Source: Propionibacteriaceae bacterium
GTDB lineage: Bacteria; Actinomycetota; Actinomycetes; Propionibacteriales; Propionibacteriaceae
Assembly (NCBI GenBank): GCA_027346035.1
Contig: DAIESZ010000096.1
Location: 1 to 19,115 of the forward strand
Direction: 5' to 3'
Length of the DNA: 19,115 bases
In this document: positions 8,377 to 18,765 of the stretch, piece after piece
How the letters are laid out: every line of letters starts with the position of its first letter
Numbering within the stretch: position 1 is the first letter of the stretch
The notes under the pieces: generated by a model
What the model saw: only the letters and a program-made list of their open reading frames with translations
Database searches by the model: none
What the model was told of the DNA's origin: nothing
Program-made: the position numbers and the translations under genes

Positions 8377-9129
8377 TCACACGAGCAGCCAGGCCGCCGC
8401 GAGTGCGCTGAAGCCGAGCACGAGGGGGTCGAACACCCGCTGGGGCATGATCCTGGCCAGTCGCACGCCCACCAGCGCGCTCAGGAGGATGACCGGTGCC
8501 ATCAGGCCGGCGGTCGTCAGGGTCTGCCACCCCACGCTGCCGACGGCGATCGCCACCGGGACCTTGATGAGGTTGACGGCGAAGTAGAACCATGCCGTGG
8601 TGCCGAGGAAGCGCACCACGTCGAAGCCCGCCGACAGCATGTAGATGCTGGTCACGGGGCCGCCGGCGTTGGCGACCATGGTCGTGAAGCCGGCGAGGCT
8701 TCCGTAGAACCACCGGCGGACCGGGTGGATGCTCGACTCGTCCCCGTGATGCGGGTTGGGGCGCCGGGACAGCCTGCGCCGCACGACCGTCCAGGTGACC
8801 ATCGCCAGCAGGATGCCCCCGATGGTGCGTTTGGTTGCCAGATCCGAGGCGAACGACAGGTATCCGCCACCCGCGGCGACGCCGACCAGTACCGCCGGCA
8901 GCAGCCGCTTGAGCGCTCCGAAGTCCGCGTCACGCCGGTAGACGGTGATCGCCGCGACATCACCGACGATGAGCATCAGCAGCACGATGCCGGTGGACGC
9001 CTTCGCGGGGAGGACGCCGGCGAGCAGCGCAACCGGGAGGATGCCGCTCCCGGGCAGCGCCGTCTTGGCCAATCCGACGAGGATCGCCGCCACCACGATG
9101 AGAGTCCATGCGGTCACTCCGAGAACCAT
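8377..9129 (-). CDS. TauE/SafE (sulfite exporter) family permease
   Basis: The 250-residue protein is almost entirely membrane segments (about eight) and shows the TauE/SafE (DUF81) pattern. The N-terminal repeat has GLAKTALPGSGILPVALLAG and a second, similar repeat around GFTTMVANAGGPVTSIYML. ATG 9129-9127 is chosen because GGGGAGGG lies on the minus strand at 9146-9139; an upstream in-frame extension to 9216 would add a Arg/Gly-rich, non-membrane leader. Family members export sulfite, sulfoacetate or other organic anions; the substrate here is not known. It lies 103 bases behind the transaldolase-like gene on the same strand and could be read from the same inositol-type promoter. It converges on the sensor kinase (35-base gap). 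Confidence 0.85.
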   Translation of the reverse strand: MVLGVTAWTLIVVAAILVGLAKTALPGSGILPVALLAGVLPAKASTGIVLLMLIVGDVAAITVYRRDADFGALKRLLPAVLVGVAAGGGYLSFASDLATKRTIGGILLAMVTWTVVRRRLSRRPNPHHGDESSIHPVRRWFYGSLAGFTTMVANAGGPVTSIYMLSAGFDVVRFLGTTAWFYFAVNLIKVPVAIAVGSVGWQTLTTAGLMAPVILLSALVGVRLARIMPQRVFDPLVLGFSALAAAWLLV

Positions 9130-9232
9130 GACGGTTCGCCCTCCCCTGTTCGTCGACACCCGTGTCGCGGGGCGGGTAGCCACCGGTCCAGGGCGACCCA
9201 CTCCGGTGAGCCTCACTGGATCCTTGCAGATG

Positions 9233-10309
9233 TCACGGACGCGGCAGGATCACGTCTCGCACCAGCATGTCGAGATCGTTGTCGGCATCGAGGAACGCGC
9301 GCAGCGTCCGCCGGGTCGCGCCGTAGGCGTCGAACTCGTCGGGGGTCATGCCGTCGGGCTCGTAGGCGCGGACGAAGTCGGGGATCCGCATCAGGGTGTC
9401 CATGATGTGGGGGGCAACGGGTTCGTCGATGCGGGAGACCACTTGGTAGCCCGACCCGTTGATGCGCTGCTGCCACGCGAACGGCGGCGAGATCACGAGG
9501 TCGCCGCCGAGGAGTTCGGACCACTGGAGCACGTTACGGAACGCCGCGTTGAGGATGCGGGCCCGCAGGCCGCGTTGCTGGAACTCCCGGTAGGCCCGTT
9601 TGATCGCGGCGATCCCGGCCCACTCCAGATGTCCGGGGTCGAGGAACAGCTGGTCGCGTTCGGCGACGATCTTCAGCCAGTCGTCGAGGCGTCCGCCCAT
9701 GATCGTCACCACCGGCCCCATGCGGGAGACGTCGTTGCCGTCGGCCTCGCGGCGCGTGAGTCCTCGCTCGATGGCCTCGCCGGTGGCCACAGCCTGCGGC
9801 ACCGAGAACGAGACCGTGACGTTGATCGACACCCCGCGGTAGGTCGCCTCCTCGATCGCCCGCAGCCCGGCGCTCGTGGCGGGCACCTTGACGACCATGT
9901 TGGGGGCGAGATCGGCGAATTCCTGCGCCTGCGCGACGAGGGCGTCGGCGCTTCGGGCGAGGCGGGGATCTGTCTGAACCGACATGCGTCCGTTGATGCC
10001 CCGGTGTTCCTCGAAGATCGGCTCCAGCAGCTTCGCGCCCTCGATCGACAACTCCCGGACGACCTGCCAACCGATCTCGGACTCGCCGGCGTCCGGCATC
10101 TCCTCGGCCAGTTCCCGGATGCGGGGGATCCAGCGCTCCCGCTTCTGGGTGATGGCGGCGAAGGCGATGGCCGGATTGCACGTGGCCCCGACGGCACCGA
10201 AGGAGATCGACTGGCGCAACTCGTCCGGATCGGCCGAGTCGTTCCACAGCACGGTGGGAAACTTCCGGGCCGCGTCGAGCAGGGGCCCGGGCGTGTAGGC
10301 GATCGGCAT
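9233..10309 (-). CDS. Transaldolase-family enzyme of the inositol regulon, Glu-to-Gln at the catalytic water site
   Basis: The 358-residue TIM-barrel protein aligns by eye with E. coli TalB: D24 (D17), N45 in ATCNP (N35), Schiff-base K141 in VVKVPAT (K132), T165 in NVTVSFS (T156), R207 in GGRLDDW (R181) and R258 in AAFRN (R228). Differences are Q112 in RMSVQTDPRL (TalB E96), T202 (S176) and M204 (F178). Gln at the E96 place is what fructose-6-phosphate aldolases carry, so a true aldolase rather than dihydroxyacetone transfer is possible. The start ATG 10309-10307 has AGGAG at 10323-10319, 9 bases away. The gene sits behind the same 22-bp operator as iolC, pointing to a role with inositol-derived phosphorylated sugars such as 2-deoxy-5-keto-gluconate 6-phosphate or its triose products. 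The exact reaction is inference. Confidence 0.83.
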   Translation of the reverse strand: MPIAYTPGPLLDAARKFPTVLWNDSADPDELRQSISFGAVGATCNPAIAFAAITQKRERWIPRIRELAEEMPDAGESEIGWQVVRELSIEGAKLLEPIFEEHRGINGRMSVQTDPRLARSADALVAQAQEFADLAPNMVVKVPATSAGLRAIEEATYRGVSINVTVSFSVPQAVATGEAIERGLTRREADGNDVSRMGPVVTIMGGRLDDWLKIVAERDQLFLDPGHLEWAGIAAIKRAYREFQQRGLRARILNAAFRNVLQWSELLGGDLVISPPFAWQQRINGSGYQVVSRIDEPVAPHIMDTLMRIPDFVRAYEPDGMTPDEFDAYGATRRTLRAFLDADNDLDMLVRDVILPRP

Positions 10310-10413: not shown

Positions 10414-10442
10414 ATTGAATTACCGACGGCAGGGAATGTCAA
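10414..10442 (-). promoter_or_regulatory. Promoter of the transaldolase-like gene
   Basis: On the minus strand TTGACA (10442-10437) is a perfect -35 box. After a 17-base spacer comes TTCAAT (10419-10414), a four-of-six match to the -10 consensus. The -35 overlaps the right end of the 22-bp operator, so a bound repressor would exclude RNA polymerase. The leader to the start codon would be about 100 bases. Confidence 0.5.
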
Positions 10443-10459
10443 CCATATGTCAGGACAAA
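10438..10459 (-). promoter_or_regulatory. IolR-type operator, copy 1 (transaldolase)
   Basis: This 22-base element, read on the minus strand, begins TTTGTCCTGACA and ends GGTTGAC. It is identical over all 22 bases to the element upstream of iolC and matches 16 or so positions of the element upstream of the aldolase. The core TGTCCTGACA is a perfect dyad (TGTC/GACA, 2-base centre), as expected for a dimeric GntR regulator. It also fits the KGWCHTRACA motif I remember for Corynebacterium glutamicum IolR. Confidence 0.72.
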
Positions 10460-10500: not shown

Positions 10501-11247
10501 TCAGCTGGCGAAGACCGTCGAGTCGAAGGTGTAGCGGTCGGCGCGGTAGATGTGATCGCCGTACTCGATGATCTCCCCGGCGTCGTCGATGGTGGTTCGA
10601 CGCATCGTGAGCAGCGACGCGCCCCGCTTCATCTGCAACAATCTCGCCTCGTCGGGGGTCGCGTTGCGGGCCCCGATCGACTGACGGGCCGACAGAAGCT
10701 GCACGTTGCGCTGCCGCAGGCCCTCGTAGAGCCCCGTGGCCTCGAGTTCGTCGCGGCTCGGTGCCAGTCTCGCGGGCAGGAGGTTGCGCATGAGTGCGAT
10801 CGGCTCCCCGTCGGCCAGGCGCAGTCGACGGGTCTCGATGATCGGTGTGTCTTCGGGGACGCCGAGCAGTGCGGCGTCCCCCGCATCGGCGAGGCGCTCC
10901 GTGTAGTCGAGCACCTGTGTCGTGGCGTGGAAGCCGCTCTGGATGAGGTCGCCCAGCAGGCTGGTGAGTTCCGAGGGGCGGTGGATCAGTTGGGGTGCGA
11001 CCTGGGTTCCGACGCCGCGTCGACGCACGACCAGGCCCTGGTCGACGAGCCGCTGGAGGGCACGCCGCGCGGTCGGCCGCGAGACCTTGAGCCGCTTGGC
11101 CATCGACAACTCGTCCTCGATCCGCGTGCCCGTCTCGAGTTGCCGGGACAGGATCAACTGGGCGATCGGCTCGGCGATCTGGAAGTAGAGCGGCACGGGG
11201 CTGTTGCGGTCGAGGTTGATCGAGGGGGCGAAGACGTCGCCGGTCAT
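10501..11247 (-). CDS. iolR: GntR/HutC-family (UTRA) regulator, probable inositol repressor
   Basis: The 248-residue protein has an N-terminal winged HTH (~15-80) with PVPLYFQIAEPIAQLI, the ETGTRIEDELSMAKRLKVSRPTARRALQRL helix-turn-helix block (given in parts: TRIEDELSMA, then SRPTARRALQRL) and the wing GLVVRRRGVGTQV. A UTRA ligand domain (~95-240) follows, ending in YGDHIYRADRYTF. AGGAG at 11260-11256 is 8 bases before ATG 11247-11245, so the longer frame from 11283 is rejected. It is divergent from the aldolase-iolBDE operon, and operator copy 2 lies between them. The likely role is repression of the three operator-bearing promoters, relieved by an inositol pathway intermediate. This rests on position, family and motif, not on binding data. 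Confidence 0.83.
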   Translation of the reverse strand: MTGDVFAPSINLDRNSPVPLYFQIAEPIAQLILSRQLETGTRIEDELSMAKRLKVSRPTARRALQRLVDQGLVVRRRGVGTQVAPQLIHRPSELTSLLGDLIQSGFHATTQVLDYTERLADAGDAALLGVPEDTPIIETRRLRLADGEPIALMRNLLPARLAPSRDELEATGLYEGLRQRNVQLLSARQSIGARNATPDEARLLQMKRGASLLTMRRTTIDDAGEIIEYGDHIYRADRYTFDSTVFAS

Positions 11248-11365
11248 GTCTGGCACTCCTTCGTGGTGCGCGAGGCTATGCACAGGCTAGCGATCAACCG
11301 GTAGGTCCGGGCATAAAGCTCACGTATCGTCAGGGTGTACGCGTCTTACGACAAGAGGAAGTCAT

Positions 11366-11461: not shown

Positions 11462-12328
11462 ATGTCCCTCACGGAACGCCTCGTGCAGATCCGGGCATCG
11501 CACCCGGAGCGGATCGCCGAAACGCTCGCCACCCGCCCCAGGGGGGTGCTGCCTTCGGGCGGCGACAGGCTGATGGTCATCGCGTGTGATCATCCCGCGC
11601 GAGGTGCGCTGGGCGCGGGTCGCGACGACACGGCCATGGCCTCGCGGGAGGAACTGCTCGGCCGCTGCGTGGAGGCGCTGAGCCGCCCGGGAGTCAACGG
11701 CTTCCTCGGCACCGCCGACATGATCGAGGACCTCGCCCTGCTCGGGGCGCTCGACGGGAAGCTCGTCTTCGGATCGATGAACCGCGGCGGCCTGAAGGGT
11801 GCGAGCTTCGAGATGGACGACCGGTTCACCTGCTACGACGCCCGAGGTGTCGTGTCGGCAGGCCTCGACGGCGGCAAGATGCTGTTACGGATCAACTACT
11901 CCGATCCGGGCAGCGCGAACACCCTCGAGGCCTGTGCGCACGCCGTCGACGAGTTGGCCGAGCACCGCGTGATGGCGATCATCGAACCCTTCGTCACGCG
12001 GTGGCGCGACGATCGGATCGTCAACGACCTGAGCCCCGAGGCGGTCATGACCTCGATGGCCATCGCGTCCGGGCTCGGACGCACCTCCGCATACACCTGG
12101 CTGAAGCTCCCGGTGGTTGCGAACATGGAACGGGTGCTGCGGGCCGGCACCCTCCCGGTGCTGCTCCTCGGTGGCGCCGTTCCGGATCGGCCGGATGAGA
12201 CGCTGGAGGCCTGGCGCACCGCGCTCACTCTTCCCACCGTGAGGGGCCTGGTGATCGGGCGCTCGCTGTTGTTCCCGCCGTCCGGCGATGTGGCGGCGGC
12301 AGTCGACGAAACGGTAGGACTCCTGTGA
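11462..12328 (+). CDS. Cgl0159-family (beta/alpha)8 aldolase-like protein
   Basis: The 288-residue protein resembles the Cgl0159-type class I aldolases found in actinobacterial inositol clusters, related to the DhnA/FbaB and DeoC group. Landmarks are LMVIACDHPARGAL (37-50), VNGFLGTADMIEDL (78-91), MLLRINYSD (140-148), the candidate Schiff-base lysine K215 in YTWLKLPVV, and the phosphate-binding-like LLLGGAV (234-240) and RGLVIGRSLLFPP (261-273). AAGGA at 11452-11456 is 5 bases before ATG 11462, which fixes the start over ATG 11456 and an upstream TTG at 11420. The likely role, replacing IolJ, is cleavage of 2-deoxy-5-keto-gluconate 6-phosphate to DHAP and malonate semialdehyde; that is inference from cluster context. 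It is first in the operon and its stop overlaps the iolB GTG start. Confidence 0.8.
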   Translation: MSLTERLVQIRASHPERIAETLATRPRGVLPSGGDRLMVIACDHPARGALGAGRDDTAMASREELLGRCVEALSRPGVNGFLGTADMIEDLALLGALDGKLVFGSMNRGGLKGASFEMDDRFTCYDARGVVSAGLDGGKMLLRINYSDPGSANTLEACAHAVDELAEHRVMAIIEPFVTRWRDDRIVNDLSPEAVMTSMAIASGLGRTSAYTWLKLPVVANMERVLRAGTLPVLLLGGAVPDRPDETLEAWRTALTLPTVRGLVIGRSLLFPPSGDVAAAVDETVGLL

Positions 12329-13194
12329 ACACGAATCCCGACCTCTACGTTCCCGCCGGTGGCAGCGCGCATGACCGGTTCACGGTCGACATCACCCCCG
12401 AGCGGGCGGGGTGGTCCTGGTCCGGGCTCAAGGTCGTGAACCTCGCGCCCGGTGAGGCGGAGACGGTCGCGACCTGCGCCGACGAGGCCCTGGTGCTCTC
12501 GCTCGAGGGTGGCTGTCGGGTGCAGGTGGACGACGCGCACTTCGAGATCACCGGGCGTCCCGGGGTGTTCCAGGGGGTCAGCGACGTCGTCTACGTTCCG
12601 CGCCACTCGATGCTGACGATCACCTCCGATGGCGGTGGGCGGTTCGCGGTGCCCACCGCGCGGGCGAGTGCCGACCTGCCGGCGTCCCACTACGACGCCG
12701 ACCAGGTGCGCACCGACCTGCGGGGGGCGGGTGACTGCTCACGGCAGGTGAACAACTACGCGCTGAACAACGGGGTCGCGACCTCCCACCTGCTGGTGTG
12801 CGAGGTGCTCACTCCGGGCGGCAACTGGTCGTCGTACCCCGCCCACAAGCACGAGGAGCACAGCGAGGTCGAGCGGGAACTCGAGGAGATCTACTACTTC
12901 GAGGTCGCCGCCGGGCCAGACGGACCCGGGTTCGCGTTCCACCGCACCTACGGCACCCCGGAGCGGCCGGTCGACCTGTTCGCCGAGGTCGGCGACGGTG
13001 ACGTCGCGCTGGTGCCGCACGGCTGGCACGGCCCCTGCGTCGCGGCCCCGGGTTACGACCTGTATTACCTCAACGTGATGGCCGGGCCGGCCGATGACCA
13101 CACGTGGCTGGCGGTGGACGACCCGCACCACCACTGGATCCGCAGCACCTGGGACGACCAGGACATCGATCCCCGCCTTCCCTTCACCCGCTGA
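12325..13194 (+). CDS. iolB: 5-deoxy-glucuronate isomerase
   Basis: The 289-residue protein is a bicupin of the IolB family, which converts 5-deoxy-glucuronate to 2-deoxy-5-keto-gluconate in the cytoplasm. The metal-site motif PAHKHEEH (172-179, H174 and H176), the acidic helix ending in EEIYYFEV (187-194, candidate E188) and VPHGWHGPC (230-238, candidate ligand H232 or H235) are all present, together with the family's YYLNVMAGP (247-255) close to the end. The length is usual. It starts with GTG 12325 inside the TGA of the upstream gene (a GTGA overlap), so translation is probably coupled; a weak TAGGA lies at 12315-12319. iolD follows after 17 bases. Confidence 0.93.
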   Translation: MNTNPDLYVPAGGSAHDRFTVDITPERAGWSWSGLKVVNLAPGEAETVATCADEALVLSLEGGCRVQVDDAHFEITGRPGVFQGVSDVVYVPRHSMLTITSDGGGRFAVPTARASADLPASHYDADQVRTDLRGAGDCSRQVNNYALNNGVATSHLLVCEVLTPGGNWSSYPAHKHEEHSEVERELEEIYYFEVAAGPDGPGFAFHRTYGTPERPVDLFAEVGDGDVALVPHGWHGPCVAAPGYDLYYLNVMAGPADDHTWLAVDDPHHHWIRSTWDDQDIDPRLPFTR

Positions 13195-13211: not shown

Positions 13212-15116
13212 GTGAGCAACGAAGCCTATCGGGACACGGTCGACCTGACCGTCGCGCAGGCGACCATCCGTTTCCTCTCCAACCAGTACTCCGAACGCGA
13301 CGGGGTGGAACGCCGCCTCATCCCCGGCGCCTTCGGCATCTTCGGGCACGGCAACGTCGCCGGCCTCGGCCAGGCGCTGCTGCAGAACGAGATCGCCCGG
13401 GCCGACGGCGAGAACGAGATGCCCTACATCATGCCCCGCAACGAGCAGGGCCAGGTGCACGCGGCGGCCGCGTTCGCCAGGGCCACCAACCGCCTGCAGA
13501 CCTGGATGTGCACGGCGTCCATCGGGCCGGGCTCCCTGAACATGGTCACCGGCGCCGCCCTCGCAACGACCAACCGGGTTCCCGTCCTGCTGTTCCCCTC
13601 CGACCAGTTCGCGACCCGCGTCCCCGACCCGGTGCTGCAGCAACTGGAGGACCCCACCACCCTCGACGCGTCGGTCAACGACTGCTTCCGTCCGGTGTCC
13701 CGGTTCTTCGACCGGATCAATCGACCCGAGCAGCTGATCCCGTCGCTGCTCAACGCCATGCGAGTGCTGACCGACCCGGCCGAGACCGGGGCGGTGACTA
13801 TCGCGATGCCGCAGGACGTGCAGGCCGAGGCGCACACGTGGCCGGTCGAGTTCTTCGACAAGCGGGTGTGGCGCGTGCGCCGGCCGCCGGCCGAGCCCGC
13901 CGCGCTGGATCGGGCGGCGCGCCGGATCCGCGAGGCACGGCGCCCGCTCGTCATCGCCGGGGGTGGCGTCATCTATTCCGAGGCCGGTGAGCAGTTGCGC
14001 GAGTTCGCCCGCCGCACCGGCATCCCGGTGGCCGACACCCAGGCCGGCAAAGGCGCGATCAACTTCGACCACGAATGCTCGGTCGGGGTAGTGGGCTCGA
14101 CCGGCTGCGATGCCGCCAACCACCTCGCCGACGCCGCCGACCTCGTCATCGGCATCGGCACCCGCTACTCCGACTTCACCACCGCGTCCAAGACCCAGTT
14201 CAAGAACCCGACGGTCGGCTTCGTCAACATCAACGTGTCGGCCTTCGACGCGGCCAAGGAATCCGCCGAGATGGTGGTGGCCGACGCCCGGGAGGCGCTC
14301 ACCGCCCTCACCGATCTGCTCGACGGCTATCGGGTGGACGCCGCGTACAGCGAGCAGATCAGGGCCGAGAAGCAGGCCTGGCTCGCCGTCACCGACAGGC
14401 ACTACCACCTGGGGCACGGGCCGTTGCCCGCGCAGACCGAGGTCTTCGGAGCCCTCAACGAACTGCTGGGCGACGACGACGTGGTGATCAACGCCGCCGG
14501 GTCGATGCCCGGGGACCTGCAGGCACTGTGGCAGGCCCGCACCCCGGTCCAGTACCACGTCGAGTACGCCTTCTCGACGATGGGCTACGAGATTCCGGCC
14601 GCTCTCGGCGTCAAGCTGGCACGCCCGGAGGCGGAGGTGGTCGCGATCGTCGGCGACGGGTCCTATCAGATGCTGCCGATGGAGCTTGCGACGGTCGTGC
14701 AGGAGAACATCAAGGTCATCTACGTGCTGCTGCAGAACCATGGGTTCGCCTCGATCGGAGCCCTCTCCGAGTCCCGGGGGTCACAGCGCTTCGGCACGGT
14801 GTACCGGCGTCGCGGCGAGGGCGGCCACCTCGACGACGACCAGCCGGTCGGCGTCGACATCGCGGCCAACGCGAGATCGTGGGGGCTCGACGTCCTCGAG
14901 GTGCACGGGATCGACGAGTTCCGCGACGCCTACCGGCGGGCCCACGCCTCGCGGCGTCCGACCATGATCCACATCGAGACCGACCTGTCCGGCCCCAACC
15001 CACCCGGATCGAGCTGGTGGGACGTCCCGGTCTCCGGCGTCTCGACCCTCGACAGCACCCGTCGGGCCCGCGACGAGTACGAGCACGCCAGGCGTCCCCA
15101 GCGGCACTACCTGTGA
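13212..15116 (+). CDS. iolD: 3D-(3,5/4)-trihydroxycyclohexane-1,2-dione hydrolase (ThDP-dependent)
   Basis: The 634-residue protein has the three-domain acetolactate-synthase-like architecture. The N-terminal pyrimidine-binding domain carries the catalytic Glu E78 in RNEQGQVHAA. A central Rossmann-like domain (~225-370) follows. The C-terminal pyrophosphate domain has GDGSYQMLPMELA (481-493) and the ThDP-Mg motif completed at LLQNHGF (506-512). IolD hydrolyses the cyclic diketone from inosose dehydration to 5-deoxy-glucuronate. Its full length and RFGTVYRRR (527-535) support IolD rather than acetolactate synthase. AGGAG at 13200-13204 is 7 bases before GTG 13212. It is third in the operon, 105 bases before iolE. 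Confidence 0.94.
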   Translation: MSNEAYRDTVDLTVAQATIRFLSNQYSERDGVERRLIPGAFGIFGHGNVAGLGQALLQNEIARADGENEMPYIMPRNEQGQVHAAAAFARATNRLQTWMCTASIGPGSLNMVTGAALATTNRVPVLLFPSDQFATRVPDPVLQQLEDPTTLDASVNDCFRPVSRFFDRINRPEQLIPSLLNAMRVLTDPAETGAVTIAMPQDVQAEAHTWPVEFFDKRVWRVRRPPAEPAALDRAARRIREARRPLVIAGGGVIYSEAGEQLREFARRTGIPVADTQAGKGAINFDHECSVGVVGSTGCDAANHLADAADLVIGIGTRYSDFTTASKTQFKNPTVGFVNINVSAFDAAKESAEMVVADAREALTALTDLLDGYRVDAAYSEQIRAEKQAWLAVTDRHYHLGHGPLPAQTEVFGALNELLGDDDVVINAAGSMPGDLQALWQARTPVQYHVEYAFSTMGYEIPAALGVKLARPEAEVVAIVGDGSYQMLPMELATVVQENIKVIYVLLQNHGFASIGALSESRGSQRFGTVYRRRGEGGHLDDDQPVGVDIAANARSWGLDVLEVHGIDEFRDAYRRAHASRRPTMIHIETDLSGPNPPGSSWWDVPVSGVSTLDSTRRARDEYEHARRPQRHYL

Positions 15117-15190: not shown

Positions 15191-15222
15191 CCGACACATC
15201 ACCACCATGAATGGAGAGACAC

Positions 15223-16083
15223 ATGTTCATTGCCGGTGCTCCGATCAGCTGGGGCGTCTGTGAGGTCCCTGGCTGGGGTCATCAGATGGCCCCCGAGCGG
15301 GTCCTCGCGGAGATGAGGGAGATCGGACTGACGGCGACGGAGTTCGGTCCGCAGGGCTGGCTGCCGGTGGAACCGCAGGCGCGAGCAACGGAAGTGGCCA
15401 AGTATGGCCTCACCCCGGTGGGGGCGTTCTTCCTCGCGGTCATGCACGACCCGGCATCCGACCCGATTCCCGCGGTCGAGCGCGAACTCGACGCCTTCGA
15501 GGTTGCCGGTGGCTCCTACCTGGTCCTGGCCGCGCATTCGGGTGCCGAGGGCTACGACGCTCGGCCGGTACTCGACGAGGCGGGGTGGCGGACGCTGGTC
15601 GACAACCTGGACCGGATCGGGGAGGTCTGCGCGGCCAGGGGAGTGACCGCCTGCCTGCACCCGCATTGGGGCACCATGGTGCAGAACGCGGACGAGATCG
15701 ACCGCGTGCTGCGCAACAGCTCGGTGGGCCTGTGCCTCGACACCGGACACATCACCTGCGGCGGGGGCGACCCGGTCGCGATCGTCGAAGAATTCGCGGA
15801 TCGCATCGACATCGTCCACGCCAAGGACGTTCGTCATGACCTCACCGACAAGCTCCTCACCGGTGAGCTGACGTGGTCGGAGGGCATCAGGGCGGGGATG
15901 TTCACCCCGATCGGCAAGGGGGACATCGACTTTGCGGCGATCGTGTCCAAACTCGGATCGGCCGGGTTCGACGGCTACTACGTGCTCGAACAGGACATCA
16001 TGATCGACGGGGAACCGGCCCCGGGCCGCGGCCCGATCGACAACGCGCGCGCGTCACTGGCCGCGCTGCGAGCCCTGGGCTGA
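15223..16083 (+). CDS. iolE: Inosose (2-keto-myo-inositol) dehydratase
   Basis: The 286-residue TIM-barrel protein belongs to the xylose-isomerase-like AP endonuclease 2 superfamily and matches IolE. The N-terminus has APISWGVCEVPGWGHQM (6-22) and TEFGPQGWLP (39-48). Candidate metal-ligand segments are LHPHWGTMV (145-153), GLCLDTGHITCGGGDP (169-184), DIVHAKDV (196-203) and YYVLEQD (252-258, E256). IolE removes water from scyllo-inosose to give the diketone used by IolD. GGAG at 15213-15216 is 6 bases before ATG 15223; an in-frame ATG at 15211 would overlap that site and is disfavoured. It is last in the plus-strand operon and converges on iolA. Confidence 0.9.
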   Translation: MFIAGAPISWGVCEVPGWGHQMAPERVLAEMREIGLTATEFGPQGWLPVEPQARATEVAKYGLTPVGAFFLAVMHDPASDPIPAVERELDAFEVAGGSYLVLAAHSGAEGYDARPVLDEAGWRTLVDNLDRIGEVCAARGVTACLHPHWGTMVQNADEIDRVLRNSSVGLCLDTGHITCGGGDPVAIVEEFADRIDIVHAKDVRHDLTDKLLTGELTWSEGIRAGMFTPIGKGDIDFAAIVSKLGSAGFDGYYVLEQDIMIDGEPAPGRGPIDNARASLAALRALG

Positions 16084-16141: not shown

Positions 16142-17644
16142 TCAGTTGCTGCCGGGGAAGTGCATGCTGGCGTCCTGGTGCTGCTCCACGTGGGGCCACC
16201 GAGTCGTGATCACCTTGTTGCGCGTGTAGAACCGCACCCCCTCGGGACCGTGGGCGTGGTGGTCTCCGAACAACGAGTCCTTCCAGCCGCCGAAGGAGTA
16301 GTAGCCGACGGGGACGGGGATCGGGACGTTGACCCCGACCATGCCGGCCTGGACGTTCTCGGTGAACGTGCGGGCGGCCTCGCCGCTGGAGGTGAAGATC
16401 GCCGACCCGTTCCCGTAGGGCGAGCCGTTGACGAGGTCCAGGGCCTCCTCAAGGGTGTCCACCTCCATCACCACGCACAGCGGGCCGAACACCTCGTCGC
16501 AGTAGGCGCGCATCGTCGGGCGGACGTTGCGCAGGACGCTCGGGCCGACGAAGAATCCCTTCTCGTGGCCGGGAACCACCAGATCGCGCCCGTCGACGAC
16601 CGCCTCGGCTCCACCCTCGACGGCCTCGGTGATGAATTCGATCACCCGCTCACGGGCCTGCGGGGTGATCACCGGGCCCATGTCGGTGCCGGCACTGCTG
16701 CCCGGACCCACGGTGATCTTCTCGGCCTCGGCCCGCAGGGCGGCGACGAGGGGCTCGGCAGCGGCACCGACCGCCACCGCGACGGGGACGGCCATGCAAC
16801 GCTCGCCGGCGGACCCGAACGACCCTGCCGCGATCTGGCCGGCGGCGAAGGCGATGTCGGCGTCCGGCATGACCACCGCGTGGTTGTTGGCTCCGCCGAG
16901 GGCCTGGACGCGCTTACCGTGCTCGATGGCGGTGCGCTGAATGTACCTGGCGATGGGAGTGGATCCCACGAAGCTGACCGCGGCGATGTCCGGGTGGGTG
17001 AGCAGGGCGTCGACGGCGTCCTTGCCGCCGTGAACGACCTGGAAGATGCCGTCGGGCAGGCCCGCTTCCCGATAGAGCCGCGCCACGAGATTGGACGCCC
17101 CGGGGTCACGCTCGGAGGGCTTGAGGATGAATGCGTTGCCGGTGGCGATCGCGATGGGATGCATCCACAGGGGCACCATGGCCGGGAAGTTGAACGGGGT
17201 GATGCCGGCGACCACGCCGAGCTGATACCGGGAGCTGTGCACATCCACGCCGGTCGAGGCGTTCGCACTGAATTCGCCCTTGGACGCCTCGGCGATGCCG
17301 CAGGCGAACTCGACGGTCTCGCGACCCCGTGCGATCTCGCCCAGGGCGTCGGGCACCGTCTTGCCGTGCTGAGCGCTGATGACCTCGGCGATCTCCTCGG
17401 CGTGCTCGACGAGCAGTTGACGGAAGCTGAACATCACCTGTGTGCGCCTGGCGAGGGATGCGGCACCCCAGTCCTTCTGAGCGGCCAGGGCCACGGACAC
17501 GGCGCGCCCCACCGCGTCGGCACCACCGAGGGCCACCGCCGCGATCACCTCCCCGGTGGCGGGGTTGTACACGGGTTGGGTGCGGGTTGCCGAGTCGTCC
17601 TCGGCGCCGTTGATCCAGTGACGGATGATCGGCAGATCGGTCAT
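16142..17644 (-). CDS. iolA: Methylmalonate/malonate-semialdehyde dehydrogenase (CoA-acylating)
   Basis: The 500-residue aldehyde dehydrogenase is of the MmsA/IolA type, which oxidises malonate semialdehyde with CoA and NAD+ to acetyl-CoA and CO2. Landmarks are ITPFNFPAMVPLWM (148-161, N152 stabilising the oxyanion), LKPSERDP (174-181), VSFVGSTPIARYI (223-235), ALGGANNHAVVMPDAD (248-263) and the nucleophile C283 in GERCMAVPVAV. The CoA-acylating subfamily lacks the general-base Glu used by hydrolytic ALDHs, and here the equivalent stretch reads ALGGANNHA, consistent with IolA. AAGGAG (17654-17649) lies 4 bases before ATG 17644. It follows iolC by 40 bases on the same strand, and both should share the iolC promoter. 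Confidence 0.93.
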   Translation of the reverse strand: MTDLPIIRHWINGAEDDSATRTQPVYNPATGEVIAAVALGGADAVGRAVSVALAAQKDWGAASLARRTQVMFSFRQLLVEHAEEIAEVISAQHGKTVPDALGEIARGRETVEFACGIAEASKGEFSANASTGVDVHSSRYQLGVVAGITPFNFPAMVPLWMHPIAIATGNAFILKPSERDPGASNLVARLYREAGLPDGIFQVVHGGKDAVDALLTHPDIAAVSFVGSTPIARYIQRTAIEHGKRVQALGGANNHAVVMPDADIAFAAGQIAAGSFGSAGERCMAVPVAVAVGAAAEPLVAALRAEAEKITVGPGSSAGTDMGPVITPQARERVIEFITEAVEGGAEAVVDGRDLVVPGHEKGFFVGPSVLRNVRPTMRAYCDEVFGPLCVVMEVDTLEEALDLVNGSPYGNGSAIFTSSGEAARTFTENVQAGMVGVNVPIPVPVGYYSFGGWKDSLFGDHHAHGPEGVRFYTRNKVITTRWPHVEQHQDASMHFPGSN

Positions 17645-17684
17645 GGCGCTCCTTCGGTGGTGTCGGTCGGGTGCTGGCATGGAT

Positions 17685-18677
17685 TCACATGCTGTCGAGG
17701 CGGGGGACCCACGCGTCGAGGACATCGGTGGTGCCGGCGGCGACGACCGCGTCGATCTCGGCGGCGGTCGGCATCGCGGTGGAGCATTCGAGTCGCGACG
17801 CGACGATCGCCCCCGCCGCGCTGGCCCGCTCGATCATCTGGCGCAGGGGCAGGCCGCGCAGCAGGCCGTCGATGAGCGAGCCGCCGAACGCGTCGCCGGC
17901 GCCGAGTCCGTTGACGATCGTCGCCCTCGTGGGCGCGATCTCGACGCGGTCGTCCCGGGTCTTGGCAAGCGTGCCCCGCGGGCCCTGCTTGACGACGGCG
18001 ATCTCGACACCACGCTCGAGCAGGGCATCGGCCGCGCGTTCGGGATCGGTCTCGCCGACCGCCACCTCGCACTCCTCGCGGTTGCCGACCGCGACCGTGG
18101 AATACCGGAGGGCGTCGGCGTAGCGATCGAACGCCACCCGGCGCTCGCGCCAGAACACGTCGCGCCAGTCGAGGTCGAAGACCGTGTGCTGGCGGCGTCC
18201 CCGGTTCTCCAGGGCGGTCAGGTGGGTCCAGTAGCTCGGCTCCTGGGACAGGCCGGTGCCGGTGAACCAGAACACGTCGGCGTTGACGATGTCGCCGAGA
18301 GGGATGTCGTAGGGGGAGATCTGCAGGTCGGGAGCCGTGGGGCGTCGGTAGAAGTAGAGGGGGAAGTTGTCCGGCGGGAAGATCTCGCAGAAGGTGATCG
18401 GGGTGGGCAGGTCGTCGACGGTCTGGACGTAGCGGTCGCTCACGCCGAGCCGGCGCATCTCCTCGCGTAACCAGCGGCCGAAGGGGTCACCGCCCACCGC
18501 GGTGACGGCCGCGACTTCGTCGTGACCCAGTCGCGCGGTGGCGACGGCGACATTGGTGGAGCTTCCGCCGAGGAACTTGCCGAAGGTGCTGACCTCTCCG
18601 AGCCCCTTGCCAATCTGGAGGGGGTAGAGGTCGACACCGATGCGTCCCATCGTGATGACCGACTGGCCGGTGCCCAT
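17685..18677 (-). CDS. iolC: 5-dehydro-2-deoxygluconokinase
   Basis: The 330-residue PfkB/ribokinase-family protein shows GRIGVDLYP (11-19), the substrate-side GGSSTNVAVATARLG (37-51), NREE (199-202) and the ATP/anion-hole motif GLGAGDAFGGSL (257-268) with catalytic base D262. IolC phosphorylates 2-deoxy-5-keto-gluconate at C6, the step before aldol cleavage. Some Gram-negative IolC proteins carry a fused aldolase domain; this one ends after the kinase, so the aldolase must be separate. ATG 18677-18675 is chosen because GGGGAGG lies 8 bases before it (18692-18686). The longer frame to 18755 would translate the operator. It is first of the iolC-iolA pair. Confidence 0.93.
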   Translation of the reverse strand: MGTGQSVITMGRIGVDLYPLQIGKGLGEVSTFGKFLGGSSTNVAVATARLGHDEVAAVTAVGGDPFGRWLREEMRRLGVSDRYVQTVDDLPTPITFCEIFPPDNFPLYFYRRPTAPDLQISPYDIPLGDIVNADVFWFTGTGLSQEPSYWTHLTALENRGRRQHTVFDLDWRDVFWRERRVAFDRYADALRYSTVAVGNREECEVAVGETDPERAADALLERGVEIAVVKQGPRGTLAKTRDDRVEIAPTRATIVNGLGAGDAFGGSLIDGLLRGLPLRQMIERASAAGAIVASRLECSTAMPTAAEIDAVVAAGTTDVLDAWVPRLDSM

Positions 18678-18714
18678 GCGAGGAACCTCCCCTGAAGCGT
18701 CACTGCTCGTAAAA

Positions 18715-18736
18715 GTCAACCATATGTCAGGACAAA
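18715..18736 (-). promoter_or_regulatory. IolR-type operator, copy 3 (iolC-iolA)
   Basis: This element is identical in all 22 bases to copy 1, over 8 kb away, and has the same orientation relative to its gene. The core TGTCCTGACA is a perfect dyad. Its end forms TTGACT, a -35-like box at 18719-18714 pointing to iolC; no good -10 is visible 16-18 bases downstream (TTCAGG at 17). Tight conservation in an otherwise unrelated upstream region argues for a protein binding site. Confidence 0.72.
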
Positions 18737-18765
18737 GTGCGAGTTGTTGTCCCATCCGAAACGCG

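Follow-up and report, generated by a model that had tools for sequence, protein, structure and literature searches.

An actinobacterial transaldolase-like protein of inositol gene clusters with an altered active site, and its possible part in a kinase-free pathway

What does a transaldolase-like enzyme do among inositol genes when glutamine occupies the place of its catalytic glutamate? This question is raised by a 19,115-nucleotide stretch of DNA from a Propionibacteriaceae bacterium (GenBank assembly GCA_027346035.1, contig DAIESZ010000096.1), hereafter the window, which forms contig C249 in an assembly of 384 contigs with 77% completeness. An initial annotation of the window had noted an open reading frame with Gln at the position of Glu96 in the transaldolase TalB. 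That reading frame is confirmed and lies on the minus strand, which the initial annotation did not state. We use TAL* as a working name for the distinct actinobacterial subfamily of transaldolase-like proteins to which the window protein belongs. With a probability of about 45%, we propose that TAL* is an inositol-pathway transaldolase, transferring dihydroxyacetone (DHA) from unphosphorylated 5-dehydro-2-deoxy-D-gluconate (DKG), the product of IolB, to glyceraldehyde-3-phosphate and so yielding fructose-6-phosphate and malonate semialdehyde. At odds somewhat short of even, this would amount to a kinase-free inositol pathway in which the DKG kinase IolC and the DKG-phosphate aldolase are dispensable, TAL* serving in small single-contig actinobacterial genomes as the sole pentose-phosphate transaldolase as well.

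The TAL* active site

The window protein is a member of the superfamily of transaldolases and fructose-6-phosphate aldolases (FSA), matching Pfam TAL_FSA (PF00923) at 1.9e-36 and 126.4 bits against a cut-off of 27. Aligned with TalB and FsaA, both from E. coli K-12, it retains TalB K132, D17, N35, N154, T156, R181 and R228 as K141, D24, N45, N163, T165, R207 and R258. TalB E96 corresponds to Q112 (RISTEVDARL in TalB, RMSVQTDPRL in TAL*), a position at which FsaA likewise has Gln, and TalB F178 corresponds to M204. TalB S176 pairs with T202 by the ungapped stretch LISPFVGR/VVTIMGGR anchored at R181/R207, on which this assignment rests, a gap in the MAFFT alignment having displaced this single position. 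Further changes from TalB are S226 to A256, L158 to S167, T34 to C44, A16 to N23 and V97 to T113. The initial annotation held that the TalB catalytic residues are kept except E96; its changes at E96, S176 and F178 stand, and S226 to A256 and the others went unmentioned.

These features are more general than one sequence could show. After duplicate removal, 117 unique sequences remained of the 127 TAL* sequences gathered, the split copy of genome G075 being left out, and D24, N45, Q112, K141, T165, T202, M204, R207, A256 and R258 are invariant in all 117, as are S167, C44, N23 and T113. An invariant pocket rules out a decayed gene or a chance substitution. In a structure model (predicted local distance difference test, pLDDT, 92.2), strand 3 terminates at Q112 and strand 6 at M204; our statements on the pocket rest on the alignment and on these strand ends. 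As for G075, its TAL* match (C1:3069169-3070226) falls into two pieces in different frames, and this copy may be broken or mis-assembled.

Judged by its residues, TAL* is neither a classical transaldolase nor an FSA, lacking both the transaldolase Glu and the aldolase Tyr. Gln stands in place of Glu96 in 117 of 117 sequences, and the best NCBIfam transaldolase score is 118.2 bits against a cut-off of 367. Q112 does correspond to Gln59 of FSA, where the catalytic water is described as being held by Gln59, Thr109 and Tyr131, with Tyr131 as the dominant proton shuttle (PMC13259622). At the place of Tyr131, all 117 TAL* sequences have Met204, in alignment with TalB F178, which has been engineered to Tyr; moreover, TAL* has 358 residues against about 220 for FSA and scores 49.1 bits against 245.95 with TIGR00875. 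Gln alone thus does not make TAL* an FSA, and we rejected its assignment as a new FSA on account of this Met.

An enzyme acting in the manner of FSA could still be imagined, one that splits DKG into malonate semialdehyde and free DHA, the latter then passing to DhaK. Its Gln112 is shared with FSA, TalB engineered to E96Q and F178Y was solved as 4RZ6 and a T. acidophilum counterpart as 4XZ9 (by PDB titles), and one genome with a TAL* cluster, G188, encodes DhaK and DhaL. With Met204 where FSA has its Tyr, we regard this alternative as improbable. The initial annotation had proposed a new aldolase on the strength of the Gln; its observation holds for FsaA, its inference is weakened by Met204, and its FSA-like reading is probably wrong.

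Linkage to inositol genes

TAL* is closely tied to inositol catabolism. In the stored flanks of the best 80 of 473 relatives, with genes assigned from 35% identity upwards, some iol-like gene is present at 79 of 80 TAL* loci, a count in which IolG-like matches at 35% identity may include other Gfo/Idh dehydrogenases; iolB, iolC, iolD or a gene for a Cgl0159-like protein, the presumed DKG-phosphate aldolase, occurs in 71 of 80. Iol genes are found in 19 of 21 neighbourhoods (the window and 20 relatives; at L037 IolG-like only), TAL* often being followed by iolG. At loci L043 and L045 (G061 and G022), TAL* is not accompanied by iol genes; the former copy has isocitrate lyase and malate synthase G as neighbours, and L045 shares those gene clusters.

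Co-occurrence agrees with this linkage. A family sample of 97 genomes contains 31 with TAL*, the two-piece copy of G075 among them, and IolD is over cut-off in 30 of these 31 versus 8 of the 66 without TAL* (Fisher 1.3e-16, kinship ignored); in the 31st, G089, IolD is cut by the contig end. In seven of the eight genomes with IolD and without TAL*, IolC and Cgl0159 both exceed their cut-offs. The eighth, G044, combines an IolD over cut-off with the lack of IolC, Cgl0159 and TAL*, and this IolD may belong to another pathway or point to a further route for DKG. TAL* and Cgl0159 occur together in 25 of the 31 genomes, one Cgl0159 being a fragment.

A shared operator completes this picture. The 21-bp site TGTCCTGACATATGGTTGACA precedes TAL* in the window and recurs with one mismatch before iolC, two matches being reached in none of 200 shuffles. 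Both copies match what we take to be the C. glutamicum IolR pattern, KGWCHTRACA, for which a first-order model expects 0.39 matches; the motif TGWCNWRNNNNWYNNWCA gave none. When 400 nucleotides upstream of TAL* were scanned in 101 sequences, the window included and some genomes counted twice, an operator-like site (at most 6 of 21 mismatches, no shuffle control) was present in 56, at 58-128 nucleotides before the gene. By its iol neighbourhood and the operator shared with iolC, TAL* is a likely member of the iol regulon. The IolR-type operator noted by the initial annotation is real, and its assignment of the protein to the inositol pathway is right, being supported by linkage, operator and co-occurrence alike. 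It had further supposed that TAL* acts alongside or instead of the Cgl0159-like protein, and genomes of both patterns were found.

Clusters without the kinase and the proposed reaction

Neither IolC nor Cgl0159 is over cut-off in 8 of 17 TAL*-containing genomes (G058, G151, G188, G217, G253, G343, G387 and G413), whose rows are scattered among those with IolC in a quick tree with open forks. Three of them, G151, G188 and G217, each consist of one contig (1.3-1.4 Mb, 99% completeness) and share the gene order iolA-iolB-iolD-iolE-like-TAL*-Gfo-iolG. G343 has TAL*-iolD-iolB-iolA with a divergent iolE, and the 20-kb stretches around TAL* in these four genomes yield no IolC match at 1e-8. G188, read as a whole genome, has no Cgl0159, one class II aldolase and, as its best IolC hit, a partial match of 50 bits; its three weak IolC-profile matches resemble fructokinase or ribokinase types. 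We considered mere incompleteness as the cause of the missing iolC, which is countered by the three single contigs and by the reading of G188 in full. G253 is a weaker case, TAL* being convergent with iolD-iolB on a contig that ends about 0.7 kb beyond iolB, with a Cgl0159 match under cut-off at 20.7 bits. These few genomes suggest that TAL* replaces both IolC and the DKG-phosphate aldolase in a shorter, kinase-free breakdown of inositol.

How might such a replacement work? It follows from the structures of gluconate and fructose that DKG, numbered from its ketone end, matches D-fructose in configuration at C3 and C4, its C5 being a CH2 and its C6 a carboxylate. DKG would form a Schiff base on K141, and cleavage between C3 and C4, assisted by D24 and N45, would leave a dihydroxyacetone Schiff base and release malonate semialdehyde for IolA. 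The bound dihydroxyacetone would then be transferred to glyceraldehyde-3-phosphate, held at an anion site formed by R207 and R258, to give fructose-6-phosphate. IolC and the DKG-phosphate aldolase would be bypassed, in parallel to the sulfofructose transaldolase of sulfoglycolysis; in genomes that retain IolC and Cgl0159, the window's among them, TAL* would offer a second, ATP-free exit from DKG.

Unphosphorylated DKG is the most likely substrate of TAL*, preferred to DKG-6-phosphate because eight TAL*-containing genomes lack IolC over cut-off and because Thr202 places a hydroxyl where TalB has Ser176. TalB F178Y/S176A gains activity with hydroxyacetone, and FSA A129S gains activity with DHA (PMC3962226), behaviour which implies that use of DHA donors is associated with a hydroxyl at this place. 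DKG-6-phosphate, with its phosphate on the donor carbon, should fit the TAL* site poorly. The acceptor phosphate in TalB is bound by two Arg and one Ser, according to the same paper. The acceptor-phosphate arginines are retained in TAL* as R207 (R181) and R258 (R228). We take R228 and S226 to be the other two TalB ligands of this phosphate, and the change of S226 to A256 should weaken phosphate binding.

This last change is the first of several points that weigh against a DKG transaldolase. The TAL* pocket, as judged from alignment and strand ends, shows neither a Glu nor a Tyr that could act as acid/base and proton shuttle. IolC is retained in 27 of the 31 TAL*-containing family genomes and in all 30 of another TAL*-containing set. 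All eight genomes without IolC and Cgl0159 hold other PfkB-type matches, and a class II aldolase shorter than the first is additionally encoded in five of them (G151, G217, G253, G413 and G058), so that a DKG-phosphate aldolase is possible there; G188, G343 and G387 have one class II aldolase only. G058 has no iolB and G387 no iol gene near TAL*, making both weaker cases, as is G413, where a PfkB kinase lies beside the iol/TAL* cluster. In G188, DhaK and DhaL could make use of free DHA. In four genomes of the same genus as G188 (G170, G261, G291 and G301), IolC and Cgl0159 are encoded elsewhere and TAL* is not part of any iol cluster.

The strongest fact against the proposal is the retention of IolC in 13 TAL*-containing genomes without Cgl0159, namely 11 of the 30-genome set (3 of them also in the family sample under another handle), G094 and G273; G006, with an IolC fragment at a contig end and no Cgl0159, was excluded. 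DKG-phosphate needs an aldolase in such genomes, and TAL* could serve. Only one class II aldolase match, about 980-990 bp long, was obtained in nine of the 13; the remaining four (G097, G099, G101 and G103) have a second, shorter one. Every family-sample genome with IolC over cut-off has TAL*, Cgl0159 or both. These patterns favour TAL* as a class I (Schiff-base) aldolase that would cleave DKG-6-phosphate to dihydroxyacetone phosphate (DHAP) and malonate semialdehyde, interchangeably with Cgl0159 and IolJ. Yet the active site is identical in the eight genomes without IolC over cut-off, the T202 hydroxyl occupies a place that appears to go with DHA rather than DHAP (PMC3962226), and TAL* coexists with Cgl0159 in many genomes. 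Absence of Cgl0159 does not force the step upon TAL* either, given that for Caulobacter the role of IolJ has been tentatively assigned to an FBA-like protein (PMC2597717), a kind of protein that could, by analogy, fill it in the 13 genomes. On balance we consider a DKG-6-phosphate aldolase unlikely.

TAL* could also be an ordinary pentose-phosphate isozyme that is only co-induced with the inositol genes. It is the sole TAL-family match in 9 of 20 genomes (seven genomes of group g58, G343 and G329) and stands away from iol genes in G170, G261, G291 and G301. However, a further TAL-family match is present in the other 11 and in the window genome, where it is a canonical transaldolase on contig C209 (L001) that retains Glu and shares 27.5% identity with TAL*. 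The loss of Glu96, the S226A change and the strong iol linkage point to another substrate, and in g58 all three genomes without IolC have TAL* inside an iol cluster, and all four with IolC have it outside. We hold this explanation to be distinctly improbable. The sole TAL-family matches of g58, together with the zwf, Gnd-like, rpe and tkt genes of G188 (which also has pfk), fit true transaldolase chemistry as the DKG transaldolase proposal would have it.

Compared systems, the window and wider meaning

Known enzymes offer several points of comparison. The Cgl0159-like protein and IolJ presumably act on DKG-6-phosphate. They belong to other families (the former PF22649, PDB 3FOK, titled uncharacterized) and would stand at the same point of the pathway as TAL*. 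Transaldolases of the Corynebacterium glutamicum/Neisseria type (PDB 3R5E, 3CLM) share 24-26% identity with TAL*, which differs in having Gln for Glu and Met for Phe in the pocket. E. coli FsaA resembles TAL* in its Gln at the catalytic-water position and in its Lys, Asp, Asn and Thr. By PDB titles, TalB E96Q and E96Q/F178Y (4RZ5, 4RZ6) are laboratory counterparts of the Glu-to-Gln change; those are man-made, whereas natural TAL* pairs Gln with Met, not Phe or Tyr. A functional parallel to the proposed reaction is the sulfofructose transaldolase (SqvA/SftT, PDB 8BC2-8BC4), which cleaves a C6-anionic analogue of D-fructose and passes DHA to glyceraldehyde-3-phosphate; SqvA is reported to transfer the glycerone unit of sulfofructose in this way to form fructose-6-phosphate (PMC9594981).

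Relatives of TAL* turned up in other settings. On a Shinella sumterensis plasmid (NZ_CP132303; L136:9824-11032), a sister protein of 31% identity (tblastn) has the Gln/Ser/Thr/Met constellation of TAL* with Ser256 and Thr44; its gene lies between those for pyruvate dehydrogenase E1 alpha/beta and, by reading, E2/E3, near a class II aldolase, a phosphoglycolate-phosphatase-like gene and TpiA, which suggests a sugar pathway. The Clavibacter plasmid pCI3 (L135) carries an iol cluster with TAL*, its Cgl0159-like gene being annotated as deoxyribose-phosphate aldolase. In G413 (L144:9427-18709), iolB-D-E-G-TAL* is accompanied by an upstream glycoside hydrolase family 4 (GH4) alpha-galactosidase gene, the divergent PfkB kinase and, by reading, a DeoR-like regulator and a lipoprotein, perhaps for galactinol use. 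TAL* adjoins an iron-containing alcohol dehydrogenase in G387 (L141:8602-10891). In the tree, sequences titled Tissierella (L103) and Xylanimonas (L081) fall with those of Varibaculum and Schaalia, and their record names look doubtful.

The features of the window are collected in Table 1. The iolC start is probably 18677, because a start at 18755 would place the operator within the reading frame. TauE-like genes come after TAL*-iolD also at L105, L120, L128, L132 and L137. Among the best 120 of 7967 matches, the protein closest to that of the window (92%) is from a 'Propionibacterium sp.' metagenome-assembled genome.

Table 1. Genes and putative regulatory sites of the window.
Feature	Position	Strand	Remarks
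TauE/SafE-family permease	8377..9216	minus	directly downstream of TAL*
TAL*	9233..10309	minus	ATG start, 358 aa, transaldolase fold; active site Q112, K141, T202, M204, R207, A256, R258
-10-like hexamer TTCAAT	10414-10419		by reading
Operator and promoter-like site	10437..10457	minus	before TAL*; palindrome TGTCCTGACA at 10448-10457 running into -35-like TTGACA (10437-10442)
GntR/UTRA-family regulator, likely IolR	10501..11283	minus	adjoins TAL*
Cgl0159-like protein (PF22649), presumed DKG-phosphate aldolase	11462..12328	plus	start codon uncertain: 11420/11456/11462
iolB, 5-deoxy-glucuronate isomerase	12325..13194	plus	TIGR04378 over cut-off
iolD	13215..15116	plus	TIGR04377 over cut-off
iolE-like inosose dehydratase	15211..16083	plus	TIGR04379 170 bits, cut-off 290
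iolA-like (methyl)malonate-semialdehyde dehydrogenase	16142..17650	minus	TIGR01722 over cut-off
iolC, DKG kinase	17685..18677	minus	start probably 18677
Operator before iolC	18714..18734	minus	20/21 bases identical to TAL* operator

In open-licence PMC literature, judged by title and start of abstract, we found no iol-linked transaldolase. The P. freudenreichii genome paper (PMC4437456) assigns cleavage of DKG-phosphate to IolD, and the word transaldolase is absent from its main text; a soy proteome of the same species (PMC7736159) lists Transaldolase 1 and IolC/D/G, with no row for a TAL* orthologue under the terms searched in its main text. In a large genome survey (PMC9430895), iolC is one of four core genes regarded as essential for breaking down inositol, of which three are required; clusters without iolC would still pass this rule, so that the gap would escape notice.

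The kinase-free branch is testable. If it is true, inositol takes its place beside sulfoquinovose among the substrates of transaldolase-type cleavage. The TAL* family would also allow the role of Gln at the water site to be examined in natural enzymes that lack the Tyr; engineered TalB and FSA have been used for this question until now. Finally, the named relatives among the best 120 of 7967 carry the plain annotation transaldolase, and models of metabolism in Propionibacterium, Cutibacterium and Actinomyces could be led astray by it.
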